Source: a bacterium (GTDB lineage: Bacteria; Joyebacterota; Joyebacteria; Joyebacterales; Joyebacteraceae). Taken from it: DNA of 64,000 nucleotides. A model generated the notes under the pieces. The model was not told the DNA's origin and made no database searches. It was given only the letters and a program-made list of their open reading frames with translations. Position numbers and translations under genes: made by a program. Position 1 is the stretch's first letter. Every line of letters begins with the position of its first letter. The stretch lies in NCBI GenBank assembly GCA_025782395.1, contig JALGZD010000176.1:1-64000 (forward strand). The letters are read 5' to 3'. Shown in pieces: positions 136 through 11,053 of the stretch.

Positions 136-2544
136 ATGAGGATAGGGGTCTACGTGTGCCACTGCGGTGGCAACATATCAGAGACGGTGGACGTCAAGGC
201 AGTCGCAGCGGCCGCGGAGCAACGGCCCGGCGTCGTGGTCGCGCGCGACTACGGACACATGTGTTCCGATCTAGGACAGAAGCTCATCCTGGATGACATC
301 AAGGAGCACGACCTCGACAGGGTCGTAGTTGCAGCGTGTTCCCCGCACTTCCAGGGCGCAACATTCATGAATGTGCTTGAGACCGGTGGGCTGAGCCCGT
401 ACGTGTTCGAGATGGCCAACATCCGCGAGCAGTGCGCGTGGCCTCACTACGGCGAGCCGGAGACAGCAACGCTGAAATCGATAGAGCTTACGAACATGGC
501 TATCGCGAAGGCCGGACTCGACGAATCCCTCGACAAGAAGACGATGCCGATCGGAAAGAGGGTGCTCGTCATCGGCGGGGGCATCGCGGGAATCCAGGCG
601 TCTCTCGATCTTGCCGACTCGGGTTTCGAGGTCCACCTGGTTGAGAAGAATCCCTCGATCGGCGGCAAGATGGCGCAGCTGTCGAGAACTTTCCCCACCG
701 AGGATTGCTCCGCGTGCATCCTGAGCCCGAAGATGGCGGACGTGCCTGCCAATCCGAACATCGACCTGCTCACGTACTCGGAGATCGAGAGCGTCGAGGG
801 TTACCTCGGCAATTTCGAGGTCACGGTCATCAGGAAGCCGACCTACGTCGATCCCGACCTGTGTACGGCGTGTGGTCTCTGCGAAGAAGCCTGCCCCGTC
901 AAGGTCCCTTGTGAGTTCGAGGAAGGCTTGCTCGACCGCAAGGCCATCCACGTACCGTTCGACTTCGCGGTTCCATACAAGTACCTGATTGACGAAAGCG
1001 TGTGTCTGAGACTTACCAGAGGCGGTGATGTCTGCGGACTCTGCCAGAAGGCGTGCCCAAAGGACGCCATTGATTTCAACAGGAAGTCCGAGAAGGTTCG
1101 CTTCACCGTCGACACGATCGTCGTTGCCACGGGATACGACATCTTCGACGCAACGGAGAAGAAGGTCTACGGATACGGGAAGTACAAGAACGTTATCACA
1201 GCGCTCGAGATGGAACGCATGATCGTTAACGGAGCAGCAGGCAAACCTATAAGACCGGTCAAGGGCAGGATCGGCTTCATTCAGTGTGTGGGATCCAGAG
1301 ACGAGCAGGTCGGCAACGAGTACTGCTCGAGGGTGTGCTGCATGTATGCGACCAAGCTCTCCCAACTGCTCAAGCGCTCCGATCCCACAAGAGAGATCTA
1401 CGTTTTCTATACGGATCTCCGGGCGTTCGGAAAGGGGTTCGAGGAGTACTACAAGCGGGCGCAGACGGACGGCGTGAAGTTCGTCCGCGGTCGCGTGGCT
1501 GAGCTCATCGAGGATCCGGTCACAAAGAGTGTCACCGTCAAGGTAGAGGACACGCTCTCTCGCCGGATGATAGAGGCGGAGTTCGATCTCGTCGTGCTGT
1601 CGGTGGGACTCAAGCCGAACGCGGGTACGGAGAGGATCGCGGAGATACTGAAGCTCGCGAAGAGCCCCGACGGATTTCTGCAGGAGGCCCACCCGAAATT
1701 CAGACCCGTCGACACTCTCAAGGAAGGCATATTCCTCGCAGGCGCGGTCCAGGGACCGAAAGACATCCCGGACGCCGTGGCGTCGGCAAGCGCCGCTGCG
1801 GCAAGAGCCGTCCGACTGATGAACCAGGGTGAGTTCTCTCTTGACCCGGTGCTCGCATACGTCCACGAGGATATCTGCGATGGTTGCGGCCTCTGTGTGG
1901 AGAGCTGTCTGCCCGGCGCCATCTCCATGTCGTCGAACGTCGCACAGATCAATGAGACGCTCTGCACGGGCTGCGGGATCTGCATCGCCGCGTGCCCGAT
2001 CGACGCGATGGATCTCCACTGCTACGCGAACGACCAGCTTCTGGCTGAAGTCGAGGCCGCCATCTCCGAACGCCGCGACGGCGGAATCAGGATCATCGTG
2101 TTTGCCGATGACACGACGACGTATCGTCTTGCCGACAACGTCGGAACCGGAAGGCTTCCCTACGCGCCGGAGACGAGGATAATCAGGGTTCCCAGCGGCA
2201 GCAGAGCAACGCCTGCTCTCATACTGAAGGCGTTCGCTCTTGGAATCGATGGTGTCTTTGTGGGTGAGAGCGAGAGTAAGTCATCACCGTACGCAGGCAT
2301 TGGCCCAGCGCTGTCGCGCAATATCGAGCAGACGAGAGCCTTTCTGCGCGAGCACGGAATAGAACCGGAGCGCGTGCGTGCAAAGGAGTTCGTGACTATC
2401 ATGCTGGGAGGATTTGTGGCGCAGCTCAACGAGCTCACCGCGTTCGCAGAAAACGCCGGTCCGGTGCCGGATGAGAAGAGAAAGGCGCTCGAAGAGACCC
2501 TGGCGAACGGACTCCCACGCGCGGAAGCGCAGGTGGCACAATGA
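136..2544 (+). CDS. hdrA: HdrA-like FAD/iron-sulfur subunit with degenerate MvhD-like C-terminus
   Basis: Soluble heterodisulfide-reductase subunit A family, the flavin electron-bifurcating hub of HdrABC complexes. I chose ATG 136 because a GAGGGAG Shine-Dalgarno precedes it and MRIGVYVCHCGGNI is the usual HdrA N-terminus; the frame is open upstream to base 19. About 802 aa: N-terminal Cys segment, FAD Rossmann motif GGGIAG near residue 150, the HdrA motif DCSACILSPKM, a ferredoxin pair (CTACGLCEEACP and CGLCQKACP), a CVGSRD segment with Cys pairs, and a second ferredoxin pair near residues 585-630 (CDGCGLCVESC, CTGCGICIAACP). Residues about 650-760 align with MvhD, the hydrogenase/formate dehydrogenase adaptor, but without its cysteines. 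It overlaps hdrC by ATGA, indicating translational coupling. The family call is sure; physiological partners are unknown because the region upstream lies outside the window. Confidence 0.93.
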   Translation: MRIGVYVCHCGGNISETVDVKAVAAAAEQRPGVVVARDYGHMCSDLGQKLILDDIKEHDLDRVVVAACSPHFQGATFMNVLETGGLSPYVFEMANIREQCAWPHYGEPETATLKSIELTNMAIAKAGLDESLDKKTMPIGKRVLVIGGGIAGIQASLDLADSGFEVHLVEKNPSIGGKMAQLSRTFPTEDCSACILSPKMADVPANPNIDLLTYSEIESVEGYLGNFEVTVIRKPTYVDPDLCTACGLCEEACPVKVPCEFEEGLLDRKAIHVPFDFAVPYKYLIDESVCLRLTRGGDVCGLCQKACPKDAIDFNRKSEKVRFTVDTIVVATGYDIFDATEKKVYGYGKYKNVITALEMERMIVNGAAGKPIRPVKGRIGFIQCVGSRDEQVGNEYCSRVCCMYATKLSQLLKRSDPTREIYVFYTDLRAFGKGFEEYYKRAQTDGVKFVRGRVAELIEDPVTKSVTVKVEDTLSRRMIEAEFDLVVLSVGLKPNAGTERIAEILKLAKSPDGFLQEAHPKFRPVDTLKEGIFLAGAVQGPKDIPDAVASASAAAARAVRLMNQGEFSLDPVLAYVHEDICDGCGLCVESCLPGAISMSSNVAQINETLCTGCGICIAACPIDAMDLHCYANDQLLAEVEAAISERRDGGIRIIVFADDTTTYRLADNVGTGRLPYAPETRIIRVPSGSRATPALILKAFALGIDGVFVGESESKSSPYAGIGPALSRNIEQTRAFLREHGIEPERVRAKEFVTIMLGGFVAQLNELTAFAENAGPVPDEKRKALEETLANGLPRAEAQVAQ

Positions 2545-2901: not shown

Positions 2902-3801
2902 GTGTTCCCATACTACCCGGGATGCACTCTCAAGACGACGGCCCAGAACTTCGAGGACTCCGCGTTGGCGACCACGGCGATCCTAGGGATAGACCTTATG
3001 GAGATACCGCGGTGGAACTGCTGCGGCGTGGTCTCCTCTCTCGTGGAAAACGACCGCATGCACCACGTTGCACCCCTCAGGAACATCATCAGGGCACAGG
3101 AGATGGTGGCTGAACGAGGCGAGGAGATCGAGAGCCGACTGATCACGCTCTGCTCCATGTGCACTAACACGCTCCGAAGAACGAATCTGTTCCTGAAACA
3201 GAACCCCGAGGACCTCGAGGCCGTCAACGACTACATGTCTCTCGAGGACGACTACGAAGGCGGCGTCGAGATCGCTCATCTCCTTGAGATTCTGCGTGAG
3301 CGCGGTTTCGATACAGTGACGGACAAGGTATCGAACTCTCTCGAGGGCCTGAATGTCGCCGCGTACTACGGGTGCATGCTCCTCCGGCCGAAAGACATCG
3401 GTATCGACGACCCGGAGGATCCGACGATCCAAGAGGATCTGATCGGCGCGCTCGGCGCCACGGCCGTAGACACGCCGTACAAGAAGATGTGCTGTGGCAG
3501 CTATCAGACCGTGCAGGACAGATACGCTGTTGCTGAGCTGGCCTACGATATCCTCACCCACGCGCAGCGCGAGGGCGCAGAAGTGATCATCACTGCATGT
3601 CCACTCTGCGCATTCAACCTCGATGACCGCCAGAAAGAGGTACGCGAGCGACATCCGGAGTTTATGAGCATCCCCGTTCTCTACTTCACCCAGCTGATGG
3701 CTCTGGCCTTCGGGCTTGGAGAAGATGCGCTCGGCTTCGAACTGAACAGCGTTGACCCAAGACCGCTCCTCATGGCGAAAGGGCTTCTTGCCCCGCGGTA
3801 G
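2902..3801 (+). CDS. hdrB: HdrB-like CCG-domain subunit
   Basis: Catalytic subunit of heterodisulfide reductase-type complexes; its two CCG domains bind the non-cubane [4Fe-4S] clusters where disulfides are cleaved. Both CCG motifs are intact in 299 aa: PGC...NCCG...CSMC in the N-terminal half and YGC...MCCG...CPLC in the C-terminal half. The start appears to be GTG 2902 (GTG TTC CCA TAC), which places the first Cys at residue 8 as in other HdrB proteins; no in-frame ATG exists between the hdrC stop and this point. Bacterial homologues work with formate dehydrogenase, hydrogenase or NADH-linked partners; the physiological disulfide or other acceptor cannot be read from sequence. Confidence 0.92.
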   Translation: MFPYYPGCTLKTTAQNFEDSALATTAILGIDLMEIPRWNCCGVVSSLVENDRMHHVAPLRNIIRAQEMVAERGEEIESRLITLCSMCTNTLRRTNLFLKQNPEDLEAVNDYMSLEDDYEGGVEIAHLLEILRERGFDTVTDKVSNSLEGLNVAAYYGCMLLRPKDIGIDDPEDPTIQEDLIGALGATAVDTPYKKMCCGSYQTVQDRYAVAELAYDILTHAQREGAEVIITACPLCAFNLDDRQKEVRERHPEFMSIPVLYFTQLMALAFGLGEDALGFELNSVDPRPLLMAKGLLAPR

Positions 3802-3847: not shown

Positions 3848-4831
3848 ATGAGAGCTGGAAGCTCAGTATGCGCCGTCTTCACGGCAGTGACTCTCAACCT
3901 CCTCGCCGCCTGGTGCGGGGCGACGGAGCCGGTGGCCACGTTCTCGATCGTGGCCTTCGATGAGGCAACAGGTGAACTTGGCGTTGCCGTGCAATCGAAG
4001 TTCTTTGCCGTAGGATCAGTAGTACCGTGGGCCAGAGCCGGTGTCGGAGCCATCGCATCGCAGGCGTTTGGGAACACGACGTTCGGACCTCGTGGACTCG
4101 ACCTCATTGAGGAGGATCTCTCCCTCGAAGATGTCCTCGACCACCTGTTGACGGATGACGAGAAGCGGGAGCAACGCCAGATAGGCATCGTGGATGCGTC
4201 CGGGAATTCGATCGCTTTCACGGGCGACGAGTGCATGGACTGGGCAGGCCACCGGGCCGGCCGCCACTACTCGGTCCAGGGTAACATCCTGGTAAGCGAG
4301 AAGACCGTCGACGCCATGGCGAGCACATTCGAGGAGACGGAAGGGCTTCTCGGTGAGCGTCTCATGCGGGCCATCGAGGCCGGACAGGAGGCGGGAGGCG
4401 ACTCGCGCGGGATGCAGTCGGCGGCGATCCTCATCGTCAGTGCGGGCGGCGGGTACGGAGGTTACAACGATCGCTACTGCGACCTGAGGGTCGACGATCA
4501 CGAGAACCCGATCGCGGAGCTCAGGAGGATCTTCAACATCTGGAAAGAAGTGGCGCTCATCACGGAGGGCTACCGTCTTCTCCACGAGGGCAATCATGAG
4601 GAAGCCATCGCTGTCGGCAGGAGAGCCGTGGAGCAGTTCCCAGAAAGCGCGGAGTGCCGCTATCACCTCGCGTGCTATCTGTCACGTGGAGGCATGCGTG
4701 ATGAAGCGATGCGCGAACTCGGGAAGGCCGTCGTGGGAGATGCAGAACTCGGCCCACGGGCAAAGCTGGATCCGGATTTCGAACCGCTGAGGAACGATCC
4801 TGAATTTCATCTGATCACGGGAGCGCCGTAG
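3848..4831 (+). CDS. DUF1028 Ntn-hydrolase-like protein with TPR tail
   Basis: Secreted or exported DUF1028 family protein, 327 aa. Residues 1-24 look like a signal peptide (hydrophobic AVFTAVTLNLLAAWCGA). The mature protein starts with TFSIVAFDEATGELGVAVQS, the hallmark DUF1028 start, and continues with FGNTTFGPRGLDL and QGNILVS motifs characteristic of the family, which has an Ntn-hydrolase-like fold. About residues 240-327 form TPR-like helices (EGNHEEAIAVGRRAVEQFPE). Function is not established for the family. It follows hdrB by 46 nt in the same direction, but a functional link to the Hdr genes is not evident. Confidence 0.85.
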   Translation: MRAGSSVCAVFTAVTLNLLAAWCGATEPVATFSIVAFDEATGELGVAVQSKFFAVGSVVPWARAGVGAIASQAFGNTTFGPRGLDLIEEDLSLEDVLDHLLTDDEKREQRQIGIVDASGNSIAFTGDECMDWAGHRAGRHYSVQGNILVSEKTVDAMASTFEETEGLLGERLMRAIEAGQEAGGDSRGMQSAAILIVSAGGGYGGYNDRYCDLRVDDHENPIAELRRIFNIWKEVALITEGYRLLHEGNHEEAIAVGRRAVEQFPESAECRYHLACYLSRGGMRDEAMRELGKAVVGDAELGPRAKLDPDFEPLRNDPEFHLITGAP

Positions 4832-6397: not shown

Positions 6398-9300
6398 ATG
6401 AAGAGACGCTCGACATGCTGTCTGTTTCTATCCCTATACACGGCCATCGTGGCGATCCTTGCGCTTTGGCCCCTCGCGTGCAACGCGCAGGATGCATCTA
6501 CAGAGGGCCCCGGAGCGACCCCACCACTCCTCGTGCGAGGCGATGACAGCTACCCGCCGTACGAGTTCCTCGATGAGCACGGTCAGCCGAACGGATTCAA
6601 CGTCGATCTCTTGAGAGCCGTCGCTGAAGAGGCCAATCTCAACATCGAAATAGACCTTGGACCGTGGTCGGAAGTCAGAGAAGACATCGAATCCGGGCGT
6701 GTCCGTATTGTCACCGGCATGTTCAGGTCGGTTGAGAGAAGTGCCTCGGTCGACTTCTCGGATCCGTGCGTCGCTGTCTCGCACTCCGTCTTCGTCAGGA
6801 AGGGCTCTCACATTCGCTCGCTTGAGGACGCTGCCGGGATGTCGATAATCGTCCAAGAAGACGATATCATGCACGACTACATCATGGAGACGGGGCTGAC
6901 CGACAGGATCGTGCTGGTTGAAAACCAACAAGAGGCACTCGATCTCCTTGTGCAAGGGGAACACGACTGCGCCCTTCTCGCGAAAGGGCCCGCCCTCCAC
7001 CACATCCTTGCCGACGGACTCACCGGCGTCATCGATCCCGTCGGTGAGCCCATTCTCGAGAGAGAGTTCTGCTTCGCGGTGGTTCGGGGAAATGCACCAC
7101 TCCTTCTCAAATTGAACAAGGGCCTTGCCGGTGTCCGGGCATCGGGAGAGTATGATGAGATCTACTCCAACTGGTTCTCGTCGGTCGCGTCGGGAACTCT
7201 GCTGGCACGACTGCTCAGACTTGCTGCGTGGGTCGTAGTTCCGCTCGTGCTTCTGCTCGGCGGGGCGCTCTACTGGTCTCGTGCACTTGAGAAAGAGGTC
7301 GCCAGGAAAACTCGTGAGCTCAAGCGCGAGCTCTCCGCACGCATCCAGGCGGAGGAAATCATCAGCGAGCGGGAGAATCAGCTTCGGCGTATCCTGGAAA
7401 ACATGCCGACCATGATCTTCGCCTACGACGAACACCACCGCATTATCGTGTGGAACCGTGAATGCGAGCGGGTCACCGGCTTCACGGCTGAGGAAACAAT
7501 GAAAGCTAGAGACCCGTTGGAGCTTCTGTACCCCGATCCGGACTACCGTGCGGCGATGTTGAAAAAATGGGAGGAGCGTGGTCGCGATTACCGCGGATGG
7601 GAGTGGGCGATCACCCACAAGGACGGCGGCAGGCGCCTTGTCTCATGGTCCAACATCTCCGACACAATGCCGATTGAAGGATGCAACAACTGGGGAACAG
7701 GTGTGGACATCACCTGGAAGGAAGACGCCTTGAACTCGCTCCAGCTGAGCGAGGAGCGCTACCGCCTCATCTCCGCACTCACCTCGGACTACGCCTACGC
7801 ATTCAGAGTCAACGGCGATCAGCTGTCTGTCGAGTGGGTGACTGATGCGATCACCCGGATAACAGGATTCACGGTAGCCGATATGCGGGCGAGCGGCGGA
7901 TGGGGAGCCTTGATCGATTCCAACGATCTTGATGTCAGAATGGAGCAGCTCAAAGCTCTCAGGCGCGGCGAACCGAAGACGGTCGAGTACCGGATAGTCA
8001 CCAAGAGCGGTGCGACGCGCTGGCTTGAGGATTGCGCCATGCCGGTCATGGGAGATGATGGCACAAGCGTGACACACATCTACGGGTCCGTCAGGGACAT
8101 CACTCAGGAGAAACAGACGGAGCTGGCCAGACGCGAGAGCGAACAGCGATACCGCGCGCTCTTTGCCCAAGCAAGCGACGCCATTTTCCTGCTGCTGGGA
8201 GAGATGTTCATCGATTGCAACGGCAAGGCGCTCGAAATGTTCGCGTGCACGCGTGACCAGATCATCGGGCAGCCACCGTATCGCTTCTCGCCCCCGAAGC
8301 AGCCTGACGGCCGCGACTCCAAGGATAACGCCCGCGAGAAGATAGGTGCTGCACTGAGAGGCACTCCACAGGTCTTCGAGTGGACGCACAGCCGATACGA
8401 CGACACGACCTTCGATACGGAAGTCAGTCTGAACGCCGTCGAACTCGATGGGACACAGTATGTCCAGGCTTTCGTTCGCGACGTCAGTGAGCGGCACCAG
8501 ATCGACAAGCTGACCCGCGTGCAGAGAGATCTCGGAGTCGCCCTCCACTCCGCCATGGATCCGGATCAGGCGCTCAGCCTCTGCCTCGACGCCGCGCTAC
8601 GCATTTCGGGCATGGACTCGGGCGGCATCTACCTGTTCGACGATGCGACCGGAGAGATCAGGCTTGGTTCTCACAGGGGGCTCTCCGATGAGTTCGTGGC
8701 CACAGCCGGCTACTACGGCCCCGACGGTCCGAATGCGAAGCTCGTGGCGGCCCGCGAGGCTATCTACACCATACATGACGATCTGGACGTCCCAAAGGAT
8801 GAGAACTGCATGGACGAGGGACTCCGTGCGGTCGGGGTGCTCCCCATCGTGCAGGAAAACCACGTGATCGGGTGCCTGAACGTTGCCTCGCACACGAGTG
8901 ACGACATCCCACTCCTCGCAAGGCGCGGGCTCGAGGGAATAGCGTCTCAGATCGGGAGTGTCATTGTCGGAGCCAGGGCAGTTGATGCGCTCCGCAGGTC
9001 GGAGGAGAAGTTCCGGGGGTTCTTCAACACGACTCGTGACGGCATCATCATCACGACGACCGAGGGCATCGCAGAGGACGCTAACCCCGCCTTTCTGGAG
9101 ATGATCGGCTACACGCTCGACGAGTTCAGGGGGATGAACCTCAGGGACGTGACACCGGAACAATGGCACGAAAGGGACCATGAGGCGTTCCGTGCCCAAG
9201 TTGTCGTCAAGGGATTCGCAGACGAGTACGAAAAGGAATACGTGAGGAAGGACGGCTCCGTGTTCCCCGCATCCGTACGCGCCTGGCGCCTCAGCGGAGA

Positions 9301-11053
9301 AACTGGAGAGCGTGGCCTCAACTGGGCCATCGTTCGTGACATCACCGAGCGGAAGGCAGCCGAAGAAGTGCAGTCAGTGCTGTCCAACATCTCCGGGGCA
9401 GTTGGCGGCACCGATACGCTCGAGGAACTCCTCGGCATCATCCGTGAGCAGCTCGGAAGGTTGATGGACACCACCAACTTCTACGTCGCTCTCTACGACG
9501 ACGAGACCGGACTCTACACCTTCCCCTATCACGTCGACATCCGCGACGAGACGCCGACGGAACCGATGAGGCTCGAAAACAGCGTGACCGATTTCGTCAG
9601 GCGAACGGGGGAATCGTGTCTTATCGACGAGCGAACACAGGAACGCCTCGAGAGCGAAGAGGAAATCACCGTCTATGGGGACGACTCCTGCATCTGGCTC
9701 GGCATGCCTCTCAAGTCGACGCGGGGCGTCTTTGGTGTCGTTGTTGTTCAGAACTACGAGGAGAGCGAACTCTACGGTGAGCGCGAGCTGGAACTGATGA
9801 GGTTCGTATCCGGCAACATCTCTCTTGTCATTGAGCGCAAGAAGGCGGAGGAGGAGCGCCGGGGGCTTGAGGATCAGGTGCGGCATACACAGAAGCTGGA
9901 GAGCCTGGGCGTGCTCGCGGGCGGCATCGCGCACGACTTCAACAACCTCCTGACAGGCGTCCTCGGAAACGCGGATCTCGCGCTGATGGATCTCGGAATG
10001 TCGGCGGCGGCTCGCCTCAGCATCGAAGCAGTGCGTGAGGCGGCGGTGCGTGCAGCCGAACTCAGTGGCCAGATGCTCGCGTACTCCGGCAGGGGGCGTT
10101 TCATCACCGAACCGGTCGATCTCAACGAGCTGATCAGGGGAATGCAGCAGCTTCTGATCGCGTCCACTTCAACGAACGCCGATGTGAATTACTCCCTTGC
10201 CTCCGACCTTCCCCCCATCGCAGGTGATGCAACGCAGTTGCAGCAGGTGATCATGAATATCATCTTGAACGCCTCGGATGCCATCGGCGATCAGAACGGC
10301 AGAGTAGCAGTAACGACCGGAGCGGCTTGGTTCGACAGCTCCTTCCTGGCCGAGACACGCACAAGTGAGCAGCTCCCCGAGGGACAGTACGTCTACATCG
10401 AGGTGCGCGACTCCGGCATCGGCATGGATGACGAGACGCTTTCGAAGATCTTCGATCCCTTCTTCAGTACGAAGTTCACAGGGAGAGGACTCGGGCTCGC
10501 TGCGGTGCTGGGGATCGTGCGCAGCCACAACGGTGGGATCACGGTCGAGAGTGTGCCGGACGAGGGTACGACCTTCCGCGTCCTGCTTCCGGCAAGACCC
10601 GATGCCGTTTCGGAGGGCACGGACAGACAAGAGACTGTCGAACAGACGCAGACAGAAAGCACCGTACAGAAGGACCAGCACATGGACGGCACGGTTCTGC
10701 TTGTGGATGACGAAGCCGTGGTACGGCAAGTCACCCAGCGAATGCTCGAACGCGCCGGGTTCTCTGTCCTTACCGCGTCAGACGGGCTGAAGGCGCTCGA
10801 TGCCTACCGCAAGAACAGCGATGACATCGTCTGCGTGCTGCTCGATCTCACGATGCCGAACATGGGTGGCGACGAAACTTTCAGGGAGCTTCTCCGAATC
10901 CGCCCGGATGTCCGCGTCATCATGTCGAGCGGCTACGGTGAGCGTGAGGTCATCGAGCGGTTCATGGATCAAGGCCTGGCCGGCTATATTCAGAAGCCCT
11001 ACCTCTCCGCGAAACTCATGACCAAGCTACGCGAAGTACTTGGAACCTCATAG
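6398..11053 (+). CDS. Hybrid sensor histidine kinase with periplasmic solute-binding sensor, PAS/GAF domains and receiver
   Basis: A 1551-aa inner-membrane sensor kinase. In order: signal peptide/TM (1-32), SBP_bac_3-type periplasmic binding domain (about 45-265; GDDSYPPYEFLDEHGQPNGF is typical of amino-acid-binding proteins), TM (about 270-295), PAS repeats beginning near 325, 450 and 580, GAF (about 710-865), PAS (about 870-990), GAF (about 995-1150), HisKA with GIAHDFNNLL (phospho-acceptor His1179), HATPase with N box (NIILNASDAI), G1 (DSGIGM) and G2 (GRGLGLAAV), and a receiver domain with phospho-Asp1483 in LLDLTMP and Lys in QKPY. All catalytic residues are present. No DNA-binding partner lies next to it, so the output must be to an unlinked response protein. 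The stop is 27 nt from the convergent glgP stop. Confidence 0.95.
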   Translation: MKRRSTCCLFLSLYTAIVAILALWPLACNAQDASTEGPGATPPLLVRGDDSYPPYEFLDEHGQPNGFNVDLLRAVAEEANLNIEIDLGPWSEVREDIESGRVRIVTGMFRSVERSASVDFSDPCVAVSHSVFVRKGSHIRSLEDAAGMSIIVQEDDIMHDYIMETGLTDRIVLVENQQEALDLLVQGEHDCALLAKGPALHHILADGLTGVIDPVGEPILEREFCFAVVRGNAPLLLKLNKGLAGVRASGEYDEIYSNWFSSVASGTLLARLLRLAAWVVVPLVLLLGGALYWSRALEKEVARKTRELKRELSARIQAEEIISERENQLRRILENMPTMIFAYDEHHRIIVWNRECERVTGFTAEETMKARDPLELLYPDPDYRAAMLKKWEERGRDYRGWEWAITHKDGGRRLVSWSNISDTMPIEGCNNWGTGVDITWKEDALNSLQLSEERYRLISALTSDYAYAFRVNGDQLSVEWVTDAITRITGFTVADMRASGGWGALIDSNDLDVRMEQLKALRRGEPKTVEYRIVTKSGATRWLEDCAMPVMGDDGTSVTHIYGSVRDITQEKQTELARRESEQRYRALFAQASDAIFLLLGEMFIDCNGKALEMFACTRDQIIGQPPYRFSPPKQPDGRDSKDNAREKIGAALRGTPQVFEWTHSRYDDTTFDTEVSLNAVELDGTQYVQAFVRDVSERHQIDKLTRVQRDLGVALHSAMDPDQALSLCLDAALRISGMDSGGIYLFDDATGEIRLGSHRGLSDEFVATAGYYGPDGPNAKLVAAREAIYTIHDDLDVPKDENCMDEGLRAVGVLPIVQENHVIGCLNVASHTSDDIPLLARRGLEGIASQIGSVIVGARAVDALRRSEEKFRGFFNTTRDGIIITTTEGIAEDANPAFLEMIGYTLDEFRGMNLRDVTPEQWHERDHEAFRAQVVVKGFADEYEKEYVRKDGSVFPASVRAWRLSGETGERGLNWAIVRDITERKAAEEVQSVLSNISGAVGGTDTLEELLGIIREQLGRLMDTTNFYVALYDDETGLYTFPYHVDIRDETPTEPMRLENSVTDFVRRTGESCLIDERTQERLESEEEITVYGDDSCIWLGMPLKSTRGVFGVVVVQNYEESELYGERELELMRFVSGNISLVIERKKAEEERRGLEDQVRHTQKLESLGVLAGGIAHDFNNLLTGVLGNADLALMDLGMSAAARLSIEAVREAAVRAAELSGQMLAYSGRGRFITEPVDLNELIRGMQQLLIASTSTNADVNYSLASDLPPIAGDATQLQQVIMNIILNASDAIGDQNGRVAVTTGAAWFDSSFLAETRTSEQLPEGQYVYIEVRDSGIGMDDETLSKIFDPFFSTKFTGRGLGLAAVLGIVRSHNGGITVESVPDEGTTFRVLLPARPDAVSEGTDRQETVEQTQTESTVQKDQHMDGTVLLVDDEAVVRQVTQRMLERAGFSVLTASDGLKALDAYRKNSDDIVCVLLDLTMPNMGGDETFRELLRIRPDVRVIMSSGYGEREVIERFMDQGLAGYIQKPYLSAKLMTKLREVLGTS

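Follow-up and report, generated by a model that had tools for sequence, protein, structure and literature searches.

How electrons enter HdrA by way of MvhD is a central and partly open question of electron bifurcation. In the known structures they pass from MvhD through the C-terminal ferredoxin of HdrA to the FAD, after which HdrBC receives one electron and ferredoxin the other (PMC9012536, PMC6019823); a published structure places the MvhD cluster more than 30 Å from the FAD (PMC6019823). The window analyzed here, a DNA stretch of 64,000 nucleotides, opens with a gene for an HdrA that ends in an MvhD-like domain, and according to the initial annotation this domain has been stripped of all its cluster cysteines. 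What is such a domain kept for, and where do the electrons come in? On balance, we favor the reading that it is a non-redox docking domain and that the protein is the HdrA of a soluble, probably bifurcating fumarate reductase whose electrons enter elsewhere. We refer to this form as HdrA' (gene hdrA').

An MvhD domain without cluster cysteines

The 802 aa product of hdrA' matches solved HdrA chains with E-values of 1e-220 to 1e-174. Its domains are arranged in the order N-terminal cluster domain, FAD domain (thioredoxin-reductase-like) with an inserted ferredoxin, C-terminal 2x[4Fe-4S] ferredoxin and Cys-free MvhD-like domain, and all those preceding the last are present with their cysteines, as expected for an HdrA. 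The best intact bacterial HdrA-MvhD fusions score 1117-1236 bits with the HdrA2 model NF040770, whereas HdrA' misses its cut-off. Residues E360 and K407 correspond to E356 and K409 of the Methanothermococcus thermolithotrophicus HdrA, which have been named as bifurcation-linked (PMC12054007), and are nearly invariant. The relevant features of the window are:

136-2544, + strand: hdrA', 802 aa (NF040770 HdrA2, E 7e-277, 920 bits, cut-off 1100; Pfam domains)
1876-1995, + strand: C-terminal ferredoxin of the HdrA'-specific type, two intact 4-Cys motifs (C581-C620), cysteines invariant
2092-2442, + strand: Cys-free MvhD/FlpD domain, residues 653-769 (PF02662, E 2e-20; model and Foldseek)
2107-2118, + strand: former Cys1 and Cys2, now D658 and T661 in FADDTTTY (alignment columns 24 and 27)
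2194-2196, + strand: former Cys3, now S687 in VPSGSR (alignment column 53)
2269-2286, + strand: former Cys4 and Cys5, now S712 and S717 in GESESKSSPY (alignment columns 79 and 84)
2541-2864, + strand: hdrC, 107 aa, two 4Fe-4S (TIGR03290, E 1e-20), with an ATGA overlap with hdrA'
2902-3801, + strand: hdrB, two CCG motifs (PF02754; TIGR03288, E 1e-48)

Genes upstream of hdrA' are missing because the window begins at a contig end. Directly after hdrB follows a gene for a DUF1028 protein (3848-4831), found at the same position in one relative (L052). Further on, positions 6398-11053 encode a 1551-aa sensor protein in which solute-binding, PAS/GAF-like, histidine kinase and receiver parts can be recognized by eye.

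The C-terminal domain of HdrA' is MvhD by profile and by fold. The PF02662 (FlpD/MvhD) match scores 73 bits, where 22.3 would pass the curated cut-off, and lies within the span for which the initial annotation had proposed an alignment with MvhD (2085-2470); a genome-wide profile search returned the same match at E 8.5e-21 (bit scores 73-75). An AlphaFold model of the isolated domain, made with 17 homologues, had a mean pLDDT of 84. Foldseek placed the MvhD chains 5odh_D, 5odc_D, 8rvu_F and 7bkb_F at the top of its PDB matches (5odh_D: E 1e-12, TM 0.77/0.86; MvhD chains overall, TM 0.75-0.88). These were the only strong matches, followed by weak ones to lumazine synthase, and a new ligand-binding fold was therefore rejected; an absence of MvhD similarity is likewise rejected by the profile score and the fold match. 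In the full-length HdrA' model most of the domain has a pLDDT of 85-94, but the overall values (pLDDT 74, pTM 0.62) are moderate and do not settle its docking place.

The cysteine loss was seen exactly as annotated: CCNWC has become ADDTT, MCSGR reads PSGSR and GCHxGDCHY reads ESESKSSPY. Among the 42 stand-alone and 32 fused MvhD domains aligned, 98-100% have cysteine in each of the five corresponding columns. The window's HdrA' has D, T, S, S and S in these columns and no cysteine anywhere in the domain.

Distribution and conservation of the cysteine-free form

We collected 25 Cys-deficient sequences and compared them with 74 intact MvhD domains. The Cys-free form was present in all five genomes of the window's genus, where the relatives go by the name Candidatus Eisenbacteria, and in three of six from a sister genus. 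Two short patterns, which may miss more divergent members, were run against 84,980 species genomes and yielded 16 loci labelled Eisenbacteria, KSB1, Stahlbacteria, WOR-3, Caldisericia and unnamed bacteria, and searching the phyla around three of them added eight more. The data come entirely from metagenome-assembled genomes, which weighs against the favored reading, and the lineage labels that the relatives carry may be wrong. Decay in a single genome, or a sequencing error, can be rejected, since 25 genomes agree in their replacements and close homologues lack the intact cysteines too.

None of the 25 sequences retains the five-cysteine [2Fe-2S] site of FlpD/MvhD. The ligand columns read DTSSS (13), DCSCS (7), DTSSN (2), DTSAS (2) or DTSTS (1), giving the consensus D-[T/C]-S-[S/C/T/A]-[S/N]; in the intact set, 73 of 74 domains read CCCCC and one is truncated. 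Cysteines 1, 3 and 5 are absent throughout. Cysteines 2 and 4 co-vary, being both lost in 18 sequences, which thus keep none of the five, and both kept in seven (L063, L064, L126, L137-L140). In the domain tree the 17 Cys-free sequences group together with a support of 100, so the conserved clade that the initial annotation had asked about does exist. This topology suggests a single origin, and the paired pattern may reflect stepwise loss. The retained pair could form a disulfide or a metal site, or could mark an evolutionary intermediate; a redox or metal role may persist in this subset, which counts against the docking reading.

As a separate observation, most of the sampled intact HdrA-MvhD fusions (L080-L104) contain one in-frame TGA, probably encoding selenocysteine; none occurs in HdrA' of the window's family.

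It is possible that the domain is still redox- or metal-active through non-Cys ligands (Asp, Ser or leftover Cys) and that electrons still pass through it. Asp and Ser are able to ligate Fe-S clusters, the replacements are fixed as D-T/C-S-S/C-S, and the joint behavior of Cys 2 and 4 is what a shared site or a disulfide would produce. However, the 18 sequences without Cys at any ligand position include those of the window's genus, the window's own domain is Cys-free throughout, and we know of no case of all-oxygen [2Fe-2S] ligation. This makes a surviving redox or metal center of that kind improbable in our view.

The domain could also be a neutral relic that lost its function after the fusion and is now simply tolerated, being kept by folding constraints. 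The disappearance of the cluster from a fold that stays would fit such a history. However, the non-Cys motifs are invariant across several phyla, and dN/dS within the window's genus is 0.07-0.14 for the domain (0.04-0.07 for the HdrA core), which indicates that it is under purifying selection. Moreover, the former cluster loops, which should be freest to drift, are the most conserved stretches of the domain (FADDxTxYRLADNVGT, PSGxR and SExKSSPY, 87% against 64% for the rest). We regard a relic as highly improbable. The equivalent loops of intact MvhD are just as prominent (84% conserved), so the constraint on them persisted after the cluster was lost, and their conservation alone is no proof of a new binding site. 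Taken with the spread of the form and its fixed replacements, the conserved loops and low dN/dS argue that the domain is selected for something besides a five-Cys cluster.

A tree of the HdrA core unites the Cys-free sequences in one group (support 100). It also includes three canonical HdrA (L058, L068, L069), all from genomes that encode HdrA' as well (L058, L060, L065). The main clade of intact bacterial HdrA-MvhD fusions (27 sequences) is separate, so that an origin of HdrA' from such a type Ia fusion is unsupported; one genome (G018) encodes both forms. Trees of individual segments gave different pictures. With residues 1-562, the canonical proteins L058_A and L068_A group with the HdrA' of their own genomes (support 99), while L069_A has an unresolved placement within the group. 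With residues 563-645, the C-terminal ferredoxin, all 13 HdrA' split from all eight canonical HdrA (100/99). Accordingly, HdrA and HdrA' of L058 and of L060/L068 are 75-78% identical in their cores but only 43-46% in their ferredoxin ends, as would be expected if the C-terminal ends differ in their job. The mosaic might stem from duplication or gene conversion. It suggests that the ferredoxin and the pseudo-MvhD end make up one module, whose job is unlike that of a ferredoxin serving intact MvhD.

Gene neighborhoods and electron supply

Wherever the contig continues, hdrA' is followed by hdrC and then hdrB (22 of 22 loci), and the HdrB of the window, aligned to solved HdrB, keeps the cysteines of both CCG motifs. 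Outside the window's genus, the order hdrA'-hdrC-hdrB-sdhB-sdhA was found in all 16 loci with a long enough contig, with fumarase genes directly upstream in six loci. The sdhBA genes had been out of view of the initial annotation, as had the seven relatives with two of five cysteines and the start at a contig end. SdhB has retained its cluster motifs, one of the [2Fe-2S] type and two of the [4Fe-4S] type. For SdhA, the best NCBIfam model is TfrA (NF004900) with 306-360 bits, short of the equivalog cut-off of 718. The active-site motifs HPTG, TExxR, HYxxGG and HGxNR are kept, their His and Arg aligning with the fumarate-reductase active site. A conserved N-terminal extension of about 100 aa has no Pfam match, and the usual C-terminal SdhA domain is absent (L054, L056, L058, L061, L064). 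The position that we take to be the FAD-linking one, by comparison with E. coli FrdA, holds a residue other than His. Such a non-covalent-type FAD site would favor fumarate reduction over succinate oxidation; we therefore lean towards bifurcation with fumarate as the high-potential acceptor, although the reverse direction is possible.

The window's genus departs from this arrangement, which counts against the reading that we favor. There, sdhBA lies outside the hdrA' operon, in an adjoining divergent cluster hdrC2-hdrB2-hdrA2-mvhD-sdhB-sdhA (L050). In the window's own genome a contig (C44) begins inside sdhA, and the cluster appears to fall between contigs. Such a gap is also the probable reason why a genome-wide profile search found no intact MvhD in that genome. 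Intact MvhD accompanies the Cys-free form in all nine other genomes checked through their HdrA' loci, and in the seven other HdrA'-carrying relatives of the family. When the region downstream of the sdhBA cluster was searched for a hydrogenase gene in the window's genus, it turned out to hold a HycI-like gene followed by one for a prolyl oligopeptidase; matches to the NiFe-hydrogenase family lie elsewhere in the genome.

The survey of electron-input genes around hdrA' gave more than one candidate source. In L058, a single operon reads hdrA-mvhD-mvhG-mvhA-hycI-hdrA'-hdrC-hdrB-sdhB-sdhA, with one hdrBC only, and L060/L068 show the same arrangement divided over two contigs. In L056, the upstream genes include Ech/complex-I-like ones and one that encodes a GltD-like NAD(P)H oxidoreductase. 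Two further loci (L139:9154-12984 and L140:9247-13077) encode an HdrA' of 1277 aa into which a GltD-like module (Fer4_20/Pyr_redox_2) is inserted. This variation argues that different inputs are attached to one HdrA'-CB-SdhBA core, and it fits the suggestion of the initial annotation that the electron entry route has changed. The docking surface proposed there is compatible with these neighborhoods as well, with docking itself a plausible role for the domain.

In the sister genus, a canonical HdrA is encoded beside methylmalonyl-CoA mutase, EtfA, EtfB, a CCG/4Fe-4S protein and acyl-CoA dehydrogenase (L112:2525-10554, L113), a possible link to fatty-acid or propionate metabolism.

The single operon of L058, with its one hdrBC, and its two halves in L060/L068 bring up another explanation. 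The domain may be an inhibitory plug that fills the MvhD site on HdrA', so that the intact MvhD-hydrogenase loads only the partner HdrA of an asymmetric HdrA/HdrA' dimer with one entry. HdrA is dimeric in known complexes (PMC9012536), and the close match of the two cores, with divergent ferredoxin ends, also speaks for such a pairing. However, several lineages have no close HdrA partner beside hdrA' (L056, L059, L137, L141). We give the plug a small but real chance.

Under the docking reading, HdrA' would act as flavin subunit in a soluble HdrABC complex, to which a fumarate reductase of the TfrA/SdhA type (SdhBA) is coupled. The pseudo-MvhD would be a folded docking or lid domain, MvhD-shaped and seated beside the C-terminal ferredoxin of HdrA', without relaying electrons. 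These could enter through a partner HdrA served by intact MvhD and a [NiFe]-hydrogenase, as the Stahlbacteria/WOR-3 operons suggest, or through the NAD(P)H-oxidizing GltD-like modules that adjoin HdrA' or are inserted in it. The FAD of HdrA' would then bifurcate, with ferredoxin at the end of one branch and, by way of HdrC/HdrB and then SdhB, fumarate bound to SdhA at the end of the other. More tentatively, these enzymes could constitute a distinct Hdr class, namely soluble, bifurcating fumarate reductases that draw on H2 or NAD(P)H. HdrA and HdrA' would form an asymmetric pair, and the cluster-free pseudo-MvhD would block or re-route one of its two entries.

Relation to known systems and implications

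The domain has the same fold as MvhD/FlpD of MvhADG-HdrABC (5odc, 5odh, 7bkb; TM 0.75-0.88) and the same site beside the HdrA ferredoxin; here it is instead fused to HdrA and lacks the cluster cysteines. HdrA' resembles QmoB in having an MvhD-like C-terminal domain on an HdrA-like protein, but a QmoB-like example (L048) still has Cys in most ligand motifs. With the thiol:fumarate reductase TfrAB (NF004900) the operons share an SdhA-like subunit, for which TfrA is the top-scoring model, alongside a CCG protein of the HdrB type. They differ in that SdhB and HdrB are separate genes, HdrA is present, and SdhA stays below the equivalog cut-off and carries the N-terminal extension. Unlike the HdrA' operons, the methylmenaquinol:fumarate reductase SdhABE of Wolinella has, to our knowledge, no HdrA or HdrC. 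It does share SdhAB and a subunit related to heterodisulfide reductase (PMC2680327).

Fusions of HdrA and MvhD that carry a cluster are known, such as HdrA2 of the Methanosarcina acetivorans HdrA2B2C2, reported to have one [2Fe-2S] in its MvhD domain (PMC5296606, PMC12054007). HdrA' is likewise a fusion with all HdrA motifs, but it lacks the intact [2Fe-2S] motif and forms a clade separate from the sampled intact bacterial fusions. The type III HdrA has a GltD insertion (PMC12054007); two HdrA' have a similar NAD(P)H-type insert, here combined with a cluster-deficient MvhD domain. In Cloacimonadota (Ca. Celaenobacter), a cluster of TFR, OGOR, fumarase, Mvh group 3c hydrogenase and Hdr has been described (PMC8542988). 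It shares the Hdr, Mvh, fumarate reductase and fumarase genes, and the accessible part of that description does not mention a Cys-free MvhD domain. Our literature search, with subscription journals and Methanosarcina HdrA1 sequences outside its range, found no report of a conserved cluster-free MvhD domain in HdrA. Judged by the literature found, the domain appears to be new, while cluster-bearing fusions and Hdr/Mvh/fumarate reductase gene clusters were already known.

A conserved cluster-free MvhD on an HdrA whose gene nearly always accompanies those of a fumarate-reductase-like enzyme suggests a variant of a known energy-saving machine. As a natural HdrA with the MvhD body minus its cluster, it would separate docking from electron transfer and serve as a control supplied by nature. 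The operon also suggests that several uncultured phyla of anaerobes couple fumarate reduction to Hdr. This may be a way in which the roughly 0.4 V between H2 and fumarate could be conserved in the form of reduced ferredoxin, with no need for a fumarate reductase in the membrane.
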